From Clostridia bacterium (GTDB lineage: Bacteria; Bacillota; Clostridia; Oscillospirales; UBA644), in the NCBI GenBank assembly GCA_017621705.1, contig JAGASR010000031.1, positions 1 to 64,000 of the forward strand: a DNA stretch of 64,000 nt, in the 5' to 3' direction. Positions 14,061 through 24,494 of this stretch are shown one piece after another. Each line of letters starts with the position of its first letter. Positions within the stretch are counted from its first letter, which is position 1. The notes under the pieces are model-generated. The model made no database searches. It had not been told where the DNA came from and saw nothing but the letters and a program-made list of their open reading frames with translations. The position numbers and the translations under genes were made by a program.

Positions 14061-14735
14061 ATGTCAGAATATCAGCGCGAAGCGGATAAATACGTAAAAG
14101 ATAAATGGTATAAAAATATCTGGTATCATTATAAGATACCTATCTGTCTGATCGGATTTTTCGCTTTTGCGCTGTTCTTTTTTGCATACAGTTCCGTCAC
14201 TAAAGAGAAAATCGACCTTTATGTTATGTATATAACCGAAGATCCGGAAGTATATACCGAAAAGGTCAATGCTCTTGAATCAACGCTCTCTCTTTATACC
14301 GAAGATAAAACGGGGGACGGCGAGATTGTCGTTTTTGTCGATAATATCTTTATCGGAGACGATCATGAAGACGATGTTGTTTATCAGAATAAAGAACGTA
14401 TCATGACCGCGCTCCGCGCAGGCTCCTGCATGCTTATTCTTTGCGATGGGGAAGGGCTTGAGTATATGACTAACGCTGAAGCTCTCTGCGATCTTTCCGA
14501 GGAATTTCCCGATACTGATCTTGACGGCAATTACTACACTCTCAACGAAACTTCCTTTATGCAGAAAGACACCATGGTCGATTGGAATAACGATCTTTAT
14601 ATCTCTCTCCGTCTTTATAAAGGCACGGTCGCAGAGCTTATTCCGTCAAGCCAGGTCAATTTCGAACATGCGAAAACGACTGTTTCAAATGTTATTTCCG
14701 ATAATGTTATAAATATAGGTGACAGCAATGAATAA
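14061..14735 (+). CDS. uncharacterised single-pass membrane protein
   Basis: 224 residues. Basic aromatic N-terminus (KWYKNIWYHYKIP), one TM helix at about 27-47, then a soluble acidic domain predicted outside. I do not recognise the domain; the N-terminal KW..YWYHYK signature is familiar from hypothetical proteins of gut Clostridia. The last codons overlap the luxS start by 8 nt, so the two are translationally linked. A TTGCAA/TATACT-like promoter lies in the 123-nt gap upstream. Confidence 0.75.
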   Translation: MSEYQREADKYVKDKWYKNIWYHYKIPICLIGFFAFALFFFAYSSVTKEKIDLYVMYITEDPEVYTEKVNALESTLSLYTEDKTGDGEIVVFVDNIFIGDDHEDDVVYQNKERIMTALRAGSCMLILCDGEGLEYMTNAEALCDLSEEFPDTDLDGNYYTLNETSFMQKDTMVDWNNDLYISLRLYKGTVAELIPSSQVNFEHAKTTVSNVISDNVINIGDSNE

Positions 14736-15183
14736 AATCGAAAGCTTTAAGATAAATCATCTTACTCTTCTTCCCGGTTTTTACGTTTCCCGTGTTGACG
14801 GAGATATAACCACTTACGATATGCGCTTCGTAAAACCGTACTCCGGAGAACTCATAACCCCTTCCGAAATGCATTCTCTTGAACATATGTTTGCAACCTA
14901 CATAAGAAACTCCGAAATTTCCGAGGATGTCATTTATTTCGGTCCTATGGGTTGCCAGACAGGGTTTTATCTTCTTATAAGAAATGCCGAATATCAGAAT
15001 GTCCTCAAGCACGTAAAAATCGCTCTCGAAGGCATTATCTCTCATGACGGTGAAATGTTCGGTAACTCTGAAATCGAATGCGGTAACTGCTATACGTTAA
15101 GCCTCGATGCTGCAAAAAATCTTTCAAAAAAATATCTCGATGTATTAAATAATTCAGAAAATACGGGTGTTTACTCCGAATGA
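14728..15183 (+). CDS. luxS: S-ribosylhomocysteine lyase LuxS
   Basis: 151 residues, the usual length. It converts S-ribosylhomocysteine to homocysteine and DPD, the AI-2 precursor. The metal ligands are His and His of MHSLEHMF and Cys of ECGNC; the catalytic Cys lies in GPMGCQTGFY. The ATG at 14728 is preferred over a GTG 3 codons upstream because AGGTGA lies 8 nt before it. It overlaps the upstream gene by 8 nt and the downstream gene by 4 nt. mtnN, which makes its substrate, is three genes downstream. Confidence 0.96.
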   Translation: MNKIESFKINHLTLLPGFYVSRVDGDITTYDMRFVKPYSGELITPSEMHSLEHMFATYIRNSEISEDVIYFGPMGCQTGFYLLIRNAEYQNVLKHVKIALEGIISHDGEMFGNSEIECGNCYTLSLDAAKNLSKKYLDVLNNSENTGVYSE

Positions 15184-15512
15184 GGAGTTTGATCCAATAT
15201 CTTAACGATTTCATCGAAAGAAGATTGATGATAAACCCACCGCGGAAAATATTGATAATTTACTGGATAGTTTTGGCGATCGTGTTATTTACACTCGTCA
15301 CCCTTTCAAAAAGTATCATTTTATTTATAACTGTTCCGTTATTTGTTATCTGGTTTATATTTTTTCTTTATTTTATGAGATTGTGGAATTTTTTTCGTTA
15401 TTCGAAACTAATTGCAATTATTCCTTTAGTATTATTGGGTTTATCTGCTTTTCTTTTGGGCCCTGTTATCAGAGGCGCTTTGCTTTCGTTGATTAATTCT
15501 TTATTAGGTTGA
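15180..15512 (+). CDS. small three-helix membrane protein, unknown
   Basis: 110 residues with a basic N-terminus and three hydrophobic segments (about 23-42, 45-68, 79-105). The start ATG overlaps the luxS stop (ATGA), so it is translationally coupled. No recognised motif. It sits between luxS and a MutS-like gene; any link to AI-2 export or uptake would be speculation. Confidence 0.75.
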   Translation: MRSLIQYLNDFIERRLMINPPRKILIIYWIVLAIVLFTLVTLSKSIILFITVPLFVIWFIFFLYFMRLWNFFRYSKLIAIIPLVLLGLSAFLLGPVIRGALLSLINSLLG

Positions 15513-15522
15513 GGTGAGAGGT

Positions 15523-17121
15523 ATGAACGAAGAAAAATTATCTTTGATCTGGTCTGACGATGATTCGAGAGAAACTTTTTCTTCCGTGAATTTTATCGAA
15601 GACCTTAAATTGAACACAGTCATAGATATAAACACTTTTATTCCGTTAACAAAAAAAAGGCTTAATATCTGCGATTTTCTTACTTTAAACAAAAATACTG
15701 TAAAGAAAAGAAACGACTTGTTTTCAGATCTTCTTAAAAACAGGAATATTATTCCCCGTCTTAAAGAGTTGACTGTTAAATTAAGAGATCTCTGCGATAT
15801 AAACACCGTAAAAATGAAAGTCGATTCTTCGTTGGAGCATAATTTGTATTCCATAAAGGAATTGGGAATTTATATCGACCTGATAAAAGGATACAATAAT
15901 CTTTTTCATAATGTTGCTTTTAAATCGGATTCTTTGATTAGATTTTCTTCAAGAATTAATGAGATATGTTTATCTGATGAATTTGTCTCTCTTTGCGAAG
16001 AAACGGAAAAACTTGATAATAGAGTAAATAATATCAAGAGTATAACCATCGGACTTAATCTTGACAGTCAATTACGTCCCACAGAAGCCGGAATTATCAG
16101 CCTGAACGAGGAAAGTTTCATTTCAGGCGACATCATCGATAAAATATTAAGACTTGATTTCAAAGATAATCCGTACTCATGTCTTGTCCCTCTTGAACCG
16201 ATAGAGAAGGGATTGAATAATTCTGAAAAAGCAGCCATTAAACTTTCGGTCAACAGCACCTTGAGTTCAATGCTCTCAAGATCTTTCATCAGTTGGAAAG
16301 AATCCATTAAAAGGTTTAATAGCGAACGTTCCAAATGGCTCTACTCTCTTTTTTATGAATTTTGTTTTATACTCGGTTGCACAGATTTTCTTCTCGCACT
16401 GTATGATAGAAATTTACCTCTTTGCAGTCCTGATTTTTCAGAGGAAGAATCTATAACCGAATTATATAATCCTTGTCTTGTACTGAACAAAGATGAAGGT
16501 TATATCGTAAAAAACGATATTAATTTTGACAGCTCTGCAAGAATCTATATTCTTACCGGACCCAATCAAGGCGGTAAATCAATTTTTACAAATGCAGTCG
16601 GACATCTTTATTCGATGCTGCATTTAGGAATGTTACTACCTGCGAAGTCTGCAAAAGTTAAACTTGTCGATAATATTTTTACGCATTATCCGTCAAAACT
16701 CACAGATAGATATCAGCAGGGAAGATTTGCGACCGAATGTGCCGTTCTTTCAGACATCAGTAAAAAAATGACAGATAAAAGCTTGTTTTTATTTGACGAA
16801 AGCCTTTCAAGTACAAGTAATATCGAATCAACGGCAATTGCCTCCGAAATTCTTGCCGCATATCTGAATATTGGATGTAAAGGAATATTCACCACTCATC
16901 TTCATGATCTTTGTGCTATGACAGACGAACTGAATTCCGACAAGGATGCTGTTGGTAAAGTTGAAAATCTTTCTGCAGTTCTTTCAGATAATTCGAACGA
17001 CCGAACGTTCAAGATCGTAAAAGGAAGACCATACGGTAAAAGTTTTGCGTTTGATATCGCATCACAGTTCGGTTTAGATAAAAATGCGATATTGAATTCT
17101 TTAATTAATAAAAAACAGTAA
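15523..17121 (+). CDS. MutS-like ATPase (MutS core and domain V only)
   Basis: 532 residues. The C-terminal ATPase shows Walker A GPNQGGKSIF (about residue 350), Walker B LFLFDESLSST and the H-loop TTHLHDL, all in the MutS order. The N-terminal half (1-300) is helical and could correspond to the lever/core domains. It lacks the mismatch-recognition domain with the Phe-x-Glu motif and the C-terminal Smr nuclease of MutS2, so it is neither classical MutS1 nor MutS2. GAGGTGAG lies before the ATG at 15523. Role unknown; its place between luxS and mtnN is unusual. Confidence 0.88.
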   Translation: MNEEKLSLIWSDDDSRETFSSVNFIEDLKLNTVIDINTFIPLTKKRLNICDFLTLNKNTVKKRNDLFSDLLKNRNIIPRLKELTVKLRDLCDINTVKMKVDSSLEHNLYSIKELGIYIDLIKGYNNLFHNVAFKSDSLIRFSSRINEICLSDEFVSLCEETEKLDNRVNNIKSITIGLNLDSQLRPTEAGIISLNEESFISGDIIDKILRLDFKDNPYSCLVPLEPIEKGLNNSEKAAIKLSVNSTLSSMLSRSFISWKESIKRFNSERSKWLYSLFYEFCFILGCTDFLLALYDRNLPLCSPDFSEEESITELYNPCLVLNKDEGYIVKNDINFDSSARIYILTGPNQGGKSIFTNAVGHLYSMLHLGMLLPAKSAKVKLVDNIFTHYPSKLTDRYQQGRFATECAVLSDISKKMTDKSLFLFDESLSSTSNIESTAIASEILAAYLNIGCKGIFTTHLHDLCAMTDELNSDKDAVGKVENLSAVLSDNSNDRTFKIVKGRPYGKSFAFDIASQFGLDKNAILNSLINKKQ

Positions 17122-17137
17122 AAGGTGTTTACAACAA

Positions 17138-17824
17138 ATGATAGGTATAATTTGTGCGATGGATATTGAACTCAAGCAGATCCGTGAACTTGCTTGTGAA
17201 TGTGAGAATATCAAAGTCGCTTCGTTTGAATTTGTAAAAGGTAAGATATACGGTAGGGAAGTCGTAATGTGTGTCTGCGGTGTCGGCAAGGTTTTTGCGG
17301 CGCTTTGTGCTCACACCATGATAATGTCTTTCTCGCCCGAGATCATTATAAATGTCGGTGTTGCGGGAAATCTTTCCGATAAACTCAAAATAGGGGACAT
17401 CGCTATTGCAGACAGTCTTGTTCAGCATGATATGGATACTTCGGCGCTCGGCGATCCTGTCGGACTTATTTCCGGCATCAATGTTATTAACTTTGAGTGC
17501 TCAAAACCTGCTGTTGAAAAAATAAGTGCTATTTGCAACGATATCGGTATCAACAGCCTCGTCGGAACTATCGCAACAGGCGACAGATTCGTCGCATCGC
17601 AGGCTGAAAAAGATCGCATTGTTTCGCTCTTTAACGGTATTTCCTGCGACATGGAAGGCGGCGCGATCGCACAGGCTTGTTATATAAACAATGTTCCCTT
17701 TGCCGCAATCCGAGCTCTTTCCGATGATGCCGACAGCGGTTCTCCTTCCGATTTCGGTGAATTCTGTAAAACATCTGCAAAGAATTCTGCGGAAGTCGTA
17801 AGGCGTTTTATCGAGAATTATTAA
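17138..17824 (+). CDS. mtnN: 5'-methylthioadenosine/S-adenosylhomocysteine nucleosidase
   Basis: 228 residues, typical length. It cleaves adenine from SAH and MTA; the SAH product feeds LuxS. Family landmarks are MDIELKQI near the N-terminus (catalytic Glu), NVGVAGNL, CDMEGGA (ribose-binding Glu) and ALSDDAD (catalytic Asp). AAAGGTG precedes the start. It is the last gene of the 14061-17824 operon, which joins both steps of SAH recycling; other clostridia often keep luxS and mtnN (pfs) apart. Confidence 0.96.
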   Translation: MIGIICAMDIELKQIRELACECENIKVASFEFVKGKIYGREVVMCVCGVGKVFAALCAHTMIMSFSPEIIINVGVAGNLSDKLKIGDIAIADSLVQHDMDTSALGDPVGLISGINVINFECSKPAVEKISAICNDIGINSLVGTIATGDRFVASQAEKDRIVSLFNGISCDMEGGAIAQACYINNVPFAAIRALSDDADSGSPSDFGEFCKTSAKNSAEVVRRFIENY

Positions 17825-17876
17825 TATCAATTTATATATCGAACCTGCCGGAAAGTTTCTTTTTGATTCTGACTCG

Positions 17877-17948
17877 AAAGGTATGCGCATAGCAACGTGA
17901 AAACAAACCGTTTTCATTCATTTGCCGTACCTTTGGGTACGGCTTTTT
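17877..17948 (+). promoter_or_regulatory. candidate attenuator/riboswitch before the hydrogenase-maturation operon
   Basis: A terminator hairpin GCCGTACC / GGTACGGC (17924-17931 and 17936-17943) followed by TTTTTG ends only about 9 nt before the ribosome site of the next gene, leaving no room for a promoter. An upstream segment, AAAGGTATG (17877-17885), can pair with CGTACCTTT (17926-17934), nine pairs with one G-U, which would break the terminator. Between them is a TGAAAAC / GTTTTCA hairpin (17898-17916) and the palindrome TATGCGCATA (17882-17891). The two mutually exclusive helices are those expected of an attenuator. I do not recognise a known aptamer. Confidence 0.6.
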
Positions 17949-17964
17949 GATTGAAAGGAGTTTT

Positions 17965-18213
17965 ATGGAAACAAGAGTTGCCGTTATGGGCATAATAGTT
18001 GACGATACCGAAAATGTTTCGAAACTCAACGAATTGTTACACGAATACGGGAAATATATAATCGGAAGAATGGGCATACCGTACAGAGAAAAGCATATCA
18101 ATATCATGTCTGTTGCCATAGATGCTCCTCAGGACGTTATTTCCGCTCTTTCGGGAAAAATCGGAAATATTGAAGGAATAAGTGTCAAGACCGCATATGC
18201 GGCATCTAAATAA
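17965..18213 (+). CDS. TM1266-family protein (iron-only hydrogenase system regulator)
   Basis: 82 residues with an ACT/NikR-C-like beta-alpha-beta fold: TRVAVMGIIVDD at the N-terminus, GRMGIPYREKHINIMSV in the middle. Members are found almost only beside [FeFe]-hydrogenase maturases and are presumed regulators. The ATG at 17965 is preferred over an in-frame upstream codon because AAAGGAG lies 5 nt before it. It starts the maturation operon, 2 nt before hydE. Confidence 0.88.
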   Translation: METRVAVMGIIVDDTENVSKLNELLHEYGKYIIGRMGIPYREKHINIMSVAIDAPQDVISALSGKIGNIEGISVKTAYAASK

Positions 18214-18215
18214 TA

Positions 18216-19265
18216 ATGAACGAACAAGTTAAAAATCTGATAGATACTCTTGAAAGAGAACATTCTCTTTCAACCGAAGAATATAAATATCTTGTAGAAA
18301 ATATCAGCAAAGAAGCGGCCGATTATGCGGCGCAAAAAGCAGTTGCGGTTCGAAAATCCGTTTACGGAAACTCTGTTTTTATCCGCGGACTTATCGAAAT
18401 AGGAAACGTCTGTAGAAATGACTGCTATTATTGCGGTATCCGTAAATCCAATAAAAACTGCGATCGCTATCGACTGACCGAAGAACAGATCCTTGAGTGC
18501 TGCAGAGAAGGCTATCCTTTGGGATTTCGGACTTTCGTTATGCAGGGCGGAGAAGACGGCTCTCTTTCAGCCGAAAAAGTCTGTCGCATCGTTGAAAAGA
18601 TCAAATCGGAATTTCCTGACTGTGCCGTAACTCTATCTCTCGGAGAATATCCGACCGAAGATTATATCGCAATGTTCGAATCTGGTGCCGACCGTTATCT
18701 CTTGCGTCACGAAACCGCAAACAAAGAGCATTACGAAAAACTGCATCCCGAAAATATGTCGTTTGAAAACAGAATGAGATGTCTTCATGATCTTAAACAG
18801 ATCGGTTTTCAGGTCGGCTGCGGCTTTATGGTCGGTTCCCCTTATCAGACTTCGCAGACTATTGCGGAAGATCTCAAATTTATCGAGACTTTTTCTCCCG
18901 AAATGTGCGGCATCGGTCCGTATCTTCCCCATAAAGATACTCCGTTTTTCGATAAGCCTGCAGGAAGCGTAGATATGACTGTCTATTTGCTTTCACTGAT
19001 CAGACTTATCAAACCTACGATCCTTTTGCCTTCAACTACCGCCCTTGCATCTATTGAAAAGAACGGCAGAGAAAGAGGCATTCTCGCAGGCGCAAATGTC
19101 GTCATGCCCAATCTTTCACCGTTCTCGGAAAGAAAAAAATATTCTTTGTATGACGGTAAAGCGTATTCCGGAAGCGAATCTGCCCAGTCTCTGATCGAAC
19201 TTAAAGAGCAGATGGCAAGAATCGGATACGAAGTTGTTGTCGCCAGAGGCGACGTATCAAAATAA
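18216..19265 (+). CDS. hydE: [FeFe]-hydrogenase H-cluster radical SAM maturase HydE
   Basis: 349 residues. The radical SAM cluster motif is CRNDCYYCG (CX3CX2C, about residue 67), followed by SAM-binding QGGEDG and a BATS-type C-terminal domain as in biotin synthase relatives. HydE acts with HydG and HydF to build the 2Fe subcluster of the H-cluster. It is flanked by the TM1266-like gene and hydG on the same strand. Confidence 0.96.
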   Translation: MNEQVKNLIDTLEREHSLSTEEYKYLVENISKEAADYAAQKAVAVRKSVYGNSVFIRGLIEIGNVCRNDCYYCGIRKSNKNCDRYRLTEEQILECCREGYPLGFRTFVMQGGEDGSLSAEKVCRIVEKIKSEFPDCAVTLSLGEYPTEDYIAMFESGADRYLLRHETANKEHYEKLHPENMSFENRMRCLHDLKQIGFQVGCGFMVGSPYQTSQTIAEDLKFIETFSPEMCGIGPYLPHKDTPFFDKPAGSVDMTVYLLSLIRLIKPTILLPSTTALASIEKNGRERGILAGANVVMPNLSPFSERKKYSLYDGKAYSGSESAQSLIELKEQMARIGYEVVVARGDVSK

Positions 19266-19341
19266 GCGTTAAATAAAACTAAAAATAAATTAATTATCTG
19301 AACGGAAAGTTAATTCTGACCGTAAGAAAGGAACTGAAAAA

Positions 19342-20790
19342 ATGGCTAAATACGATCCCAAATCTTTAAAAGCAGAAGAATTTATCAACGACGAGGAGAT
19401 CCGTGCAACCCTCGAATATGCAGAACAGAATAAAAACAATGTCGAGCTTATTGACAGTATTCTCGAAAAAGCACGTCCTGTCAAAATAGGCAACGAAACC
19501 CGTTGCGCAGGTCTTTCGCATCGAGAAGCCTCTGTTCTTCTTGCGTGCGAAATTCCCGAAAAAGTCGAGGAAATGTATAAACTTGCGGAAGAGATCAAAC
19601 TTGCGCTTTACGGCAACCGCATAGTTATGTTTGCACCTCTCTATCTTTCCAATTATTGCGTAAACGGTTGCGTATACTGCCCGTATCATGCGAAAAACAA
19701 GAATATATGCCGTAAAAAACTCTCTCAGGAAGAGATCGAAAAAGAAGTTATCGCTCTTCAGGATATGGGACACAAACGTCTTGCTCTCGAAGCAGGCGAA
19801 GACCCTGTTCACAATCCCATTGAATATATCCTTGACAGTATCAAGACTATCTACAGCATCAAGCATAAAAACGGTGCTATTCGCCGCGTAAACGTAAATA
19901 TTGCCGCTACGACCGTCGAAAACTACCGTAAACTCAAAGAAGCAGGAATCGGAACATATATCCTTTTCCAGGAAACTTACCACAAAAAGAGCTATCTTGA
20001 GCTTCATCCCACAGGCCCCAAACATGACTACGATTACCACACCGAAGCTATGGACAGAGCTATGCAGGGCGGTATCGATGACGTAGGTCTCGGTGTTCTT
20101 TTCGGTCTCGAACTTTATAAATACGAATTTGCAGGCCTTCTCATGCATGCCGAACATCTCGAAGCCGCTTTCGGAGTAGGTCCTCACACAATTAGCGTTC
20201 CCAGAATCAAACGCGCGGACGATATCGACCCGTCTGTATTCGATAACGGTATTGATGACGAAACATTTGCAAAGATCATCGCTTGTATCCGTATCGCTGT
20301 TCCGTATACGGGTATGATCATTTCTACCAGAGAAAGCCAGGCAGTAAGAGAACGTGCGCTTAATATCGGTATTTCCCAGATCAGCGGCGCTTCCCGTACT
20401 TCCGTCGGCGGTTATACAGAAGAAGACCGTCCTCACGATACCGAACAGTTTGATGTTTCAGACCAGAGAACGCTCGATGAAGTCGTCAACTGGATGATCG
20501 GTCTCGGCTTTATTCCTTCTTTCTGTACGGCTTGCTACAGAGAGGGTAGAACGGGCGACAGGTTCATGAGCCTTTGCAAGAGCGGTCAGATTCTCAACTG
20601 CTGTCACCCCAATGCTCTTATGACTCTTACGGAATTCCTTTCCGACTATGCATCGGAAGATACAAAAAAGAAAGGTCTCGAACTTATCAAGCGCGAACTT
20701 GAAAGAATTCCCAATGAAAAAGTAAGAAAGATCGCAGAAAAGAATATCGAAGCGATCACAACTTCCAACAGCAGAGACTTCCGTTTCTGA
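19342..20790 (+). CDS. hydG: [FeFe]-hydrogenase H-cluster radical SAM maturase HydG
   Basis: 482 residues. The radical SAM motif is YCVNGCVYCPYH (CX3CX2C, about residue 97). The C-terminal extension with CTACYREGRTGDRFM and a later Cys pair before HPNALMTLTEFL binds the auxiliary cluster; HydG lyses tyrosine to make CO and cyanide for the H-cluster. AAGGAACTG precedes the start. The 76-nt gap after hydE shows no terminator. Confidence 0.97.
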   Translation: MAKYDPKSLKAEEFINDEEIRATLEYAEQNKNNVELIDSILEKARPVKIGNETRCAGLSHREASVLLACEIPEKVEEMYKLAEEIKLALYGNRIVMFAPLYLSNYCVNGCVYCPYHAKNKNICRKKLSQEEIEKEVIALQDMGHKRLALEAGEDPVHNPIEYILDSIKTIYSIKHKNGAIRRVNVNIAATTVENYRKLKEAGIGTYILFQETYHKKSYLELHPTGPKHDYDYHTEAMDRAMQGGIDDVGLGVLFGLELYKYEFAGLLMHAEHLEAAFGVGPHTISVPRIKRADDIDPSVFDNGIDDETFAKIIACIRIAVPYTGMIISTRESQAVRERALNIGISQISGASRTSVGGYTEEDRPHDTEQFDVSDQRTLDEVVNWMIGLGFIPSFCTACYREGRTGDRFMSLCKSGQILNCCHPNALMTLTEFLSDYASEDTKKKGLELIKRELERIPNEKVRKIAEKNIEAITTSNSRDFRF

Positions 20791-20808: not shown

Positions 20809-22011
20809 ATGGGCCTTAACGATAAAGCAACTTCCGAACGAGTCCATATAGGTTTTTTCGGTTTACGTAACGCAGGAAAATCGAGTGTCGTAAATGCTGT
20901 TACGGGGCAGAGTGTGTCTGTCGTTTCAGACGTTAAAGGAACAACGACAGATGCCGTCGAGAAATCTATGGAGCTTCTGCCGATAGGTCCCGTTGTTATT
21001 ATTGACACTCCCGGTATAGATGATTCCGGTGAGCTCGGAGATCTTCGTGTTAAGAGAACGAAAAAGGTTCTTAATAAAACTGATATCGCCGTTCTTGTTG
21101 TCGATGCTCAAAAGGGAATGAGTGAACACGATATTTCTCTCAAAACTCTTTTTGAACAGAAAGAGATCCCGTATGTTATCGCTTATAACAAAAGCGATAT
21201 GCTTGCGGATATTCCCGCAGAGACTGACAATGAAATATATGTCAGCGCAAAAAACGGAACGAACATCTACGAACTGAAAGAAAAAATCGGTAAACTTTCG
21301 GGCGCTGAAACAAATCAGAAAAAAATTGTCGGAGATATAATCGAACCGGGTGATAATATTGTCCTTGTCGTTCCTATCGACTCATCTGCGCCCAAAGGAC
21401 GCCTTATTTTGCCGCAACAGCAAACTATCAGGGATATTCTCGACTCGGGCGCTATTGCTACCGTAACGCGCGATACAGAGCTTAAAAAAGCACTTTCGTC
21501 TCTTGCGGATAAGCCGAAACTTGTAATAACCGACTCTCAGGCATTCGGTAAGGTCGGAAAAGATACGCCCGAAGATATTCTTCTTACTTCTTTTTCGATT
21601 CTGTTTGCCCGTTATAAAGGCGATCTTCTTCAGGTCGTAAAAGGTGCCGCAAAACTCGGAAAACTTCAGGACGGCGATACTGTTCTTATCTCCGAAGGCT
21701 GTACGCACCATCGTCAGTGTAATGATATCGGCACCGTTAAACTTCCCGGCTGGATCAAGGGTTTTTGCGGTAAAGATATTAATTTTGAGTTTACATCAGG
21801 CGGTGATTTTCCCGAAGATCTTTCAAAATATGCTTTGATCGTCCATTGTGGCGGCTGTATGCTTAACGAACGCGAAATGAAATACCGTATCCGTCATGCA
21901 TCAGATAACGAAATACCCATAACAAACTACGGTATCGCGATCGCGCATATCCATGGCCTTTTGAAACGCTCGCTTTCACCGTTCCCCGAAATTCAGAAAG
22001 AGCTTGATTAA
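20809..22011 (+). CDS. hydF: [FeFe]-hydrogenase maturation GTPase HydF
   Basis: 400 residues. N-terminal GTPase domain with the P-loop GLRNAGKSSV (about residues 21-30), DTPGID and NKSD; a middle dimerisation domain; and a C-terminal FeS domain with CTH and HCGGC, the cluster ligands of the family. HydF is the scaffold on which the 2Fe unit is assembled and passed to the hydrogenase. AAAGGAG precedes the start. It ends the operon, just before a strong terminator. Confidence 0.96.
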   Translation: MGLNDKATSERVHIGFFGLRNAGKSSVVNAVTGQSVSVVSDVKGTTTDAVEKSMELLPIGPVVIIDTPGIDDSGELGDLRVKRTKKVLNKTDIAVLVVDAQKGMSEHDISLKTLFEQKEIPYVIAYNKSDMLADIPAETDNEIYVSAKNGTNIYELKEKIGKLSGAETNQKKIVGDIIEPGDNIVLVVPIDSSAPKGRLILPQQQTIRDILDSGAIATVTRDTELKKALSSLADKPKLVITDSQAFGKVGKDTPEDILLTSFSILFARYKGDLLQVVKGAAKLGKLQDGDTVLISEGCTHHRQCNDIGTVKLPGWIKGFCGKDINFEFTSGGDFPEDLSKYALIVHCGGCMLNEREMKYRIRHASDNEIPITNYGIAIAHIHGLLKRSLSPFPEIQKELD

Positions 22012-24420: not shown

Positions 24421-24494
24421 TGCGGGATTGTGTAATGGTAGCACGGCAGACTCTGACTCTGTTTGTGAGGGTTCGAGCCCTTCTCCCGCAGCCA
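24421..24494 (+). tRNA. tRNA-Gln (anticodon CUG)
   Basis: 74 nt including encoded CCA. The cloverleaf closes fully: acceptor TGCGGGA/TCCCGCA with the U1-A72 pair typical of bacterial tRNA-Gln, D stem GTGT/GCAC, anticodon stem GCAGA/TCTGT with loop CTCTGAC (anticodon CTG at 24453-24455), a four-base variable loop, T arm GAGGG-TTCGAGC-CCTTC, and discriminator G73 as in bacterial Gln tRNAs. It stands alone between its own promoter and terminator. Confidence 0.95.

Follow-up and report, generated by a model that had tools for sequence, protein, structure and literature searches.

A conserved, covarying RNA stem as a predicted off-switch of [FeFe]-hydrogenase maturation genes in Clostridia

The H-cluster maturation operon in the window, which is the whole stretch of 64,000 nucleotides analysed here, contains two copies of a conserved and covarying RNA stem. 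We consider it probable that this stem acts as an off-switch, likely held by the protein TM1266 or by the signal of TM1266. Little is known of how bacteria tune the oxygen-sensitive machinery that assembles the H-cluster. That one RNA element is common to TM1266, hydE, hydG, hydF and related importer operons marks them as a regulon, makes the mechanism testable and offers a handle on the signal; the stem would also serve hydrogen production in Clostridia as a natural switch.

The maturation operon and its leader

The operon has the order TM1266-hydE-hydG-hydF on the forward strand, with all four genes above the NCBIfam cut-offs: TM1266, encoding a protein that resembles the NikR regulatory domain (17965-18213; TIGR03959, 118.4 bits), hydE (18216-19265; TIGR03956, 560.1 bits), hydG (19342-20790; TIGR03955, 925.8 bits) and hydF (20809-22011; TIGR03918, 565.7 bits). 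The ATG of TM1266 at 17965 is preceded by the Shine-Dalgarno sequence AAAGGAG (17954-17960, forward strand). Directly upstream of the leader lies a gene for an MTA/SAH nucleosidase (17138-17824), which is also found immediately 5' of TM1266 in the five nearest same-genus relatives (loci L002-L006). No promoter-like site was listed between the nucleosidase stop at 17824 and the start of the stem at 17841. Given this and the conserved neighbour, the window leader is probably transcribed from upstream. The lack of a promoter-like site would also suit a simple terminator belonging to the upstream gene, combined with a DNA operator, the RNA stem being incidental; we regard this as very improbable, because base pairs that change on both sides, antiterminators specific to their partners and copies overlapping ribosome sites indicate RNA.

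The region upstream of TM1266 (14719-17824) encodes an S-ribosylhomocysteine lyase and a MutS2/KamC-like ATPase in addition to the nucleosidase. MTA/SAH nucleosidase could clear the 5'-deoxyadenosine produced by HydE and HydG. Elsewhere in the same genome, four matches to the [FeFe]-hydrogenase large subunit (PF02906) are located on contigs C14, C32 and C36, apart from the contig of the maturation operon. The sole Rfam match in the window at the gathering score is a tRNA gene at 24421-24491.

The conserved sensor is a pseudo-symmetric stem of about 40 nt of the form CUGA-NNN-AAAG / CUGA-NNN-AAAGG, located in the window at 17841-17884. In the order-wide consensus, strand A (CUGA-NNN-AAAG) is followed by a variable hairpin and strand B (CUGA or CUGC-NNN-AAAGG), and the NNN triplets pair with each other. 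Two internal loops, each with UGA opposite AAA, are placed around a short covarying helix of variable length; as they point in opposite directions, the stem is pseudo-twofold symmetric. The antiterminator strand begins with the same AAAGG that closes strand B.

Stem copy 1 (17841-17884, forward strand) consists of CUGC-CGG-AAAG (strand A) and CUGA-CUCG-AAAGG (strand B), with the helices P1 (17843-17846/17879-17882), P2 (17849-17851/17874-17876) and P3 (17854-17855/17868-17869), all three of which are reproduced by the minimum-energy fold. It was outside the training set of covariance model R2, which scores it at 18.6 bits (E 7e-4 in 5.5 kb). The copy is divergent, being significant locally (5.5 kb) and not genome-wide: R2 gave no match in its own genome at E≤0.05, and model R1 gave an own-genome match on contig C41 at E 0.11. 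The sequence-only reading, made before the present analysis, had placed the start of the feature at 17877; it begins at 17841, and the sensor stem lies upstream of the interval described there. Also overlooked there was stem copy 2 before hydG (19294-19332, forward strand; R2 11.2 bits, E 0.094 in 5.5 kb). It reads CUGA-ACGG-AAAG, UUAAUU and CUGA-CCGU in succession and runs into the hydG Shine-Dalgarno sequence AAAGGA (19327-19332). Its ACGG/CCGU helix is perfect, and its fold on its own is no better than chance (z -1.17).

The intrinsic terminator (17924-17948, forward strand) was recognised from its sequence and by a terminator scan as an 8-bp hairpin, GCCGTACC-TTTG-GGTACGGC (17924-17943), followed by TTTTT (17944-17948). 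As had been noticed earlier, this GC-rich hairpin and its T run end just before the TM1266 ribosome site and leave no room for a promoter, which can be read directly. Likewise present is the reported complementarity of nine pairs, one of them G-U, between AAAGGTATG (17877-17885), which the stem uses at its 3' end as well, and CGTACCTTT (17926-17934), which overlaps the terminator in its left arm and loop; both lie on the forward strand and form the predicted antiterminator. The duplex of 9 bp has an energy of -14.7 kcal/mol, within the best 3% of values when the window tail is combined with the terminators of 82 other leaders. The 140-nt leader folds with z -2.89 (1/200 shuffles equally good) and the segment 17838-17948 with z -3.62 (0/200).

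The five same-genus leaders follow the same three-segment logic, with GGTGCG / CGCACC / GGTGCG vs GGTATG / CGTACC / GGTACG in the window, and have a conserved CCYGACGGAAAG...CTGA upstream of these segments; the stem is absent from a sixth relative (L018) with a more distant TM1266. Two further helices proposed between the antiterminator strands, TGAAAAC (17898-17904)/GTTTTCA (17910-17916) and TATGCGCATA, do exist in the window. They are not seen in L002-L006, so we did not retain them as functional helices and treated this segment as what it looks like, a species-specific spacer.

A leader-peptide mechanism would find a five-codon ORF, ATGCGCATAGCAACGTGA, within the leader from 17883, but L002-L006 have GGTGCG where its ATG would stand; as this ORF is not conserved there, the leader peptide was rejected. 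T-box attenuation meets with the finding that the leader has no Rfam match at E≤1, T-box included (best E 3.8). We give attenuation of either kind almost no credence.

In the window leader, a conserved, folded sensor is coupled to an expression platform in which antiterminator and terminator exclude each other, an arrangement conserved with covariation. This supports its assignment, from sequence analysis, as a putative terminator/antiterminator attenuator of the H-cluster maturation genes.

Covariation and novelty of the stem

The helices of the stem covary. In a seed of 25 sequences, 90.5% of the cells were paired vs 75.3% after shuffling, and the covariation was 0.535 vs 0.239 (0/500), with slid controls at 0.141 or below. 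An alignment of 50 sequences, which was fitted to the model and is hence biased towards it, gave 91.2% vs 74.1% paired and a covariation of 0.547 vs 0.223 in shuffles (0/500); one closing pair in it is GC in 25, AU in 22, UA in 3 and broken in 0 sequences. Because these sets had partly been chosen by pairing, the test was redone with a sequence-only pattern, which fits 57/183 TM1266 leaders. The inner triplets paired in 76.6% vs 51.9% (sd 3.2) with partners reshuffled, and full helices numbered 34 vs 10.0 (sd 2.4). In the form found upstream of hydG, the triplets paired in 79.2% vs 58.0% (24 scored; 3/27 outside the scoring pattern), and P3 pairing was uninformative (50.0% vs 50.0%). Conservation and covariation in homologous leaders, by which the sequence-only reading was to stand or fall, were both found.

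The stem belongs to no Rfam 15 family. That no known aptamer had been recognised agrees with the search of the leader at E≤10, which returned five weak unrelated matches only. Twenty homologous loci yielded only two 5S rRNAs and 15 loci at E≤0.5 a single tRNA, the stem being unmatched in both cases. Reportedly, a list of 224 candidate RNAs was compiled in 2017. Within the titles and opening lines of abstracts covered, no leader RNA of TM1266 or of hyd genes was encountered, and hydE, hydG, hydF or hydrogenase are not mentioned in the main text of the RNA-discovery papers PMC8632094, PMC11109978 and PMC6429828. The stem would represent a new RNA family, whose pseudo-symmetric core is easy to probe.

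Two expression platforms and their predicted polarity

A terminator-like hairpin follows 91/93 motif copies vs 28% of dinucleotide shuffles, and under a strict score 80/93 vs 1.4%. These 93 copies comprise 75 of 102 matches and 18 of the 26 loci L229-L254; duplicates, copies in the hydE-hydG gap, weak or badly placed matches and short loci were left out. The antiterminator was assessed in 83 non-redundant leaders by comparing the duplex energy of each motif tail with its own terminator arm and loop and with swapped partners. The mean was -11.68 kcal/mol for own and -8.26 (sd 0.28) kcal/mol for swapped partners (0/5000 permutations), and the own partner outperformed the swapped mean in 67/83 leaders. 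With the conserved GAAA removed, the values were -6.86 vs -4.72 kcal/mol (0/5000). An antiterminator of at least 7 bp occurs in only 49/83 leaders (31% of swapped pairs). The antiterminator pairing is conserved and varies leader by leader with the terminator, which supports the earlier interpretation of a terminator/antiterminator leader before H-cluster maturation genes.

A second form has no terminator. Upstream of hydG, in 27/73 distinct regions, the stem runs into the Shine-Dalgarno sequence (CUGACCC-AAAGAAAGGA); copy 2 of the window at 19294-19332 is of this form, as is a locus before hydF (L298).

In the mechanism that we propose, AAAGGTATG would pair with CGTACCTTT when no effector is present, and RNA polymerase would read on. 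With effector, first the stem and then the terminator would form, and transcription would stop near 17948. The folded stem would take the antiterminator strand before TM1266-hydE, and before hydG it would hinder the ribosome. As stem folding removes or crowds the antiterminator strand or the ribosome site in both forms, we infer that stem formation means OFF in both layouts. This polarity is based solely on the overlap of AAAGG with the antiterminator and the Shine-Dalgarno region, which speaks for weighing the opposite sign, an effector-bound stem that promotes expression. We judge the opposite sign to be unlikely, given that the stem uses or adjoins the strand required for expression in both output forms.

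Distribution and associated genes

The covariance model finds the stem across Clostridia, with carriers including Mobilitalea, Lutispora, Sporobacter and Massilioclostridium, and at single loci in Bacilli (Loigolactobacillus rennini, which was in the training set) and Erysipelotrichia (Holdemanella porci, a weak carrier with 24 bits). R2 was searched over 391 genomes of the class, and gene associations were counted at two thresholds: 43/46 matches at E≤0.01 and 39/40 at E≤1e-3 precede operons with TM1266, hydE, hydG or hydF. The training alignment already contained five of the class matches, and further ones may lie on contigs used in training. The exceptions, L263, L268 and L270, have no hyd gene.

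The motif occurs before TM1266-hydE operons, before hydE alone (L243, L248, L269) and before hydG alone (L253, L256, L258, L264). It is also found downstream of TM1266, where it precedes hydG (L235, L237), hydE (L230) or hydF (L247), and at L261 before hydF and a gene that by its sequence resembles aspartate ammonia-lyase. Such recurrence before TM1266, hydE, hydG and hydF in many genomes, together with the position of the covarying stem ahead of the antiterminator, agrees with the attenuator or riboswitch form seen in the sequence-only reading.

In an order sample of 245 genomes, R2 gave 37 matches at E≤1e-3, many of which had been in its training; 30 lie before TM1266, four before hydE/hydG operons, one before an ABC transporter (L272/L276) and two at contig ends (L271, L274). 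R1 gave many weak matches over 245 genomes. Among eight inspected R1 loci away from TM1266, L222 and L225-L228 have no hyd gene nearby, and the other three precede hydG with an acetyltransferase-like gene (L217, L223) or hydE (L224). An R2 match lies within 300 nt in 74 of 183 distinct TM1266 upstream regions (with at least 24 bits in 65), and 109 regions, L018 included, have no model match that close. A sensitive search of 37 TM1266-positive genomes that were negative in the first pass returned 15 matches, three of them before TM1266 or hydF. The first regular expression for the motif flagged 69/183 leaders, false positives among them, and failed to detect the window genus; the covariance models took its place.

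Importer genes were observed in several motif-led operons. Those at L285, L286 and L275 (genomes G056, G049 and G606) combine TM1266, or an ABC ATPase that carries a TM1266 domain, with a FecCD permease, a NifH-like protein, two proteins resembling nitrogenase components and a periplasmic binding protein. HydE is encoded at L285 (TIGR03956, 521.8 bits) and at L275 too, yet neither G056 nor G606 has a HydG that passes the cut-off. At L287, L288 and L289 motif and TM1266, and at L276 the motif alone, head the operon of an NMT1-like ABC transporter, a possible second importer of the regulon, in genomes that mostly lack HydG.

TM1266 or a directly sensed ligand as effector

TM1266 has 82 residues, is slightly acidic, is often encoded by the first gene of the operon and in some operons is fused to an ABC ATPase. 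Its structural model (pLDDT 95) matches 2nzc and NikR regulatory domains among the Foldseek matches listed. The family name of TIGR03959 goes no further than 'putative regulator'.

Outside the order, 37/39 motif-positive genomes of the class were tested (G252 and G320 were left out as false matches); 35/37, covering all 25 genera, encode TM1266, and three of the 37 lack HydG. Nine order genomes in which no HydG passes the cut-off likewise carry motif and TM1266 together. A search near the hyd genes of 24 HydG-positive, TM1266-negative genomes, 17 of which were already motif-negative in the first R2 class search, gave no motif, sensitive filters included. TM1266 was also present in 63/80 HydG-positive motif-negative genomes (80 of 200 such genomes of the class tested). 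The co-occurrence of TM1266 and motif has a p of 0.03, uncorrected for relatedness, and is weak evidence because TM1266 is common without the motif. Within TM1266, Q56 best separates motif-bearing loci (0.98 of 51) from other loci (0.68 of 66), again uncorrected for relatedness.

We favour the TM1266 protein, made from the first gene, as the effector that would close a feedback loop like that of PyrR; in our estimation the chances of this are about even, with a directly sensed ligand ranked close behind. For this role speak its frequent place as the first gene, its presence in nearly all motif-bearing genomes tested, the lack of the motif near hyd genes in the TM1266-negative genomes, the nine order genomes and the NikR-like model; against it speak the many motif-negative genomes with TM1266, its slight acidity, its fusion to an ABC ATPase and the uneven length of the helix between the two loops. 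In its fullest version, which we offer tentatively, TM1266 would sense a metal or an H-cluster precursor as a protein of the NikR type whose target is now RNA in place of DNA; loaded with ligand, it would clamp the UGA/AAA stem, and termination and ribosome-site block would silence TM1266 itself along with hydE, hydG and hydF. If so, the cofactor assembly of [FeFe]-hydrogenase would be subject to feedback at the RNA level.

A true riboswitch is quite possible, if short of probable. The RNA itself would bind a metabolite or metal of H-cluster supply (iron, an iron-CO/CN precursor, SAM or its products), and TM1266 would merely be a co-regulated sensor of the same compound. The compact conserved internal loops and the two output forms would fit a riboswitch, as would the importers among the targets (the FecCD-ABC-HydE operon at L275 and the NMT1-like ABC transporter at L272/L276 and L287) and the occurrence of TM1266 within an ABC ATPase, where it is likely a ligand domain. 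Against a riboswitch stand the 24 TM1266-negative genomes and, as we read the architecture, the variable length of the helix between the loops, which fits two separate sites better than one pocket.

Comparison with known systems

PyrR is the protein attenuator of the pyr operon in Bacillus. The predicted hyd switch resembles it in that the first gene would encode an RNA-binding regulator, and in that one RNA element is copied before several pathway genes and would govern a choice between antiterminator and terminator. It differs in its RNA, in the additional ribosome-site form, and in TM1266, a putative RNA-binding protein that is NikR-like and not a phosphoribosyltransferase. From the nickel repressor NikR, TM1266 is in turn set apart by its small size and by having no ribbon-helix-helix DNA-binding part. 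With orphan and classical riboswitches the hyd stem shares a compact conserved structure whose 3' strand overlaps the antiterminator, the OFF layout and the use of two expression platforms, whereas its pseudo-twofold UGA/AAA loops, its lack of an Rfam match and its regulon of H-cluster assembly distinguish it from them.
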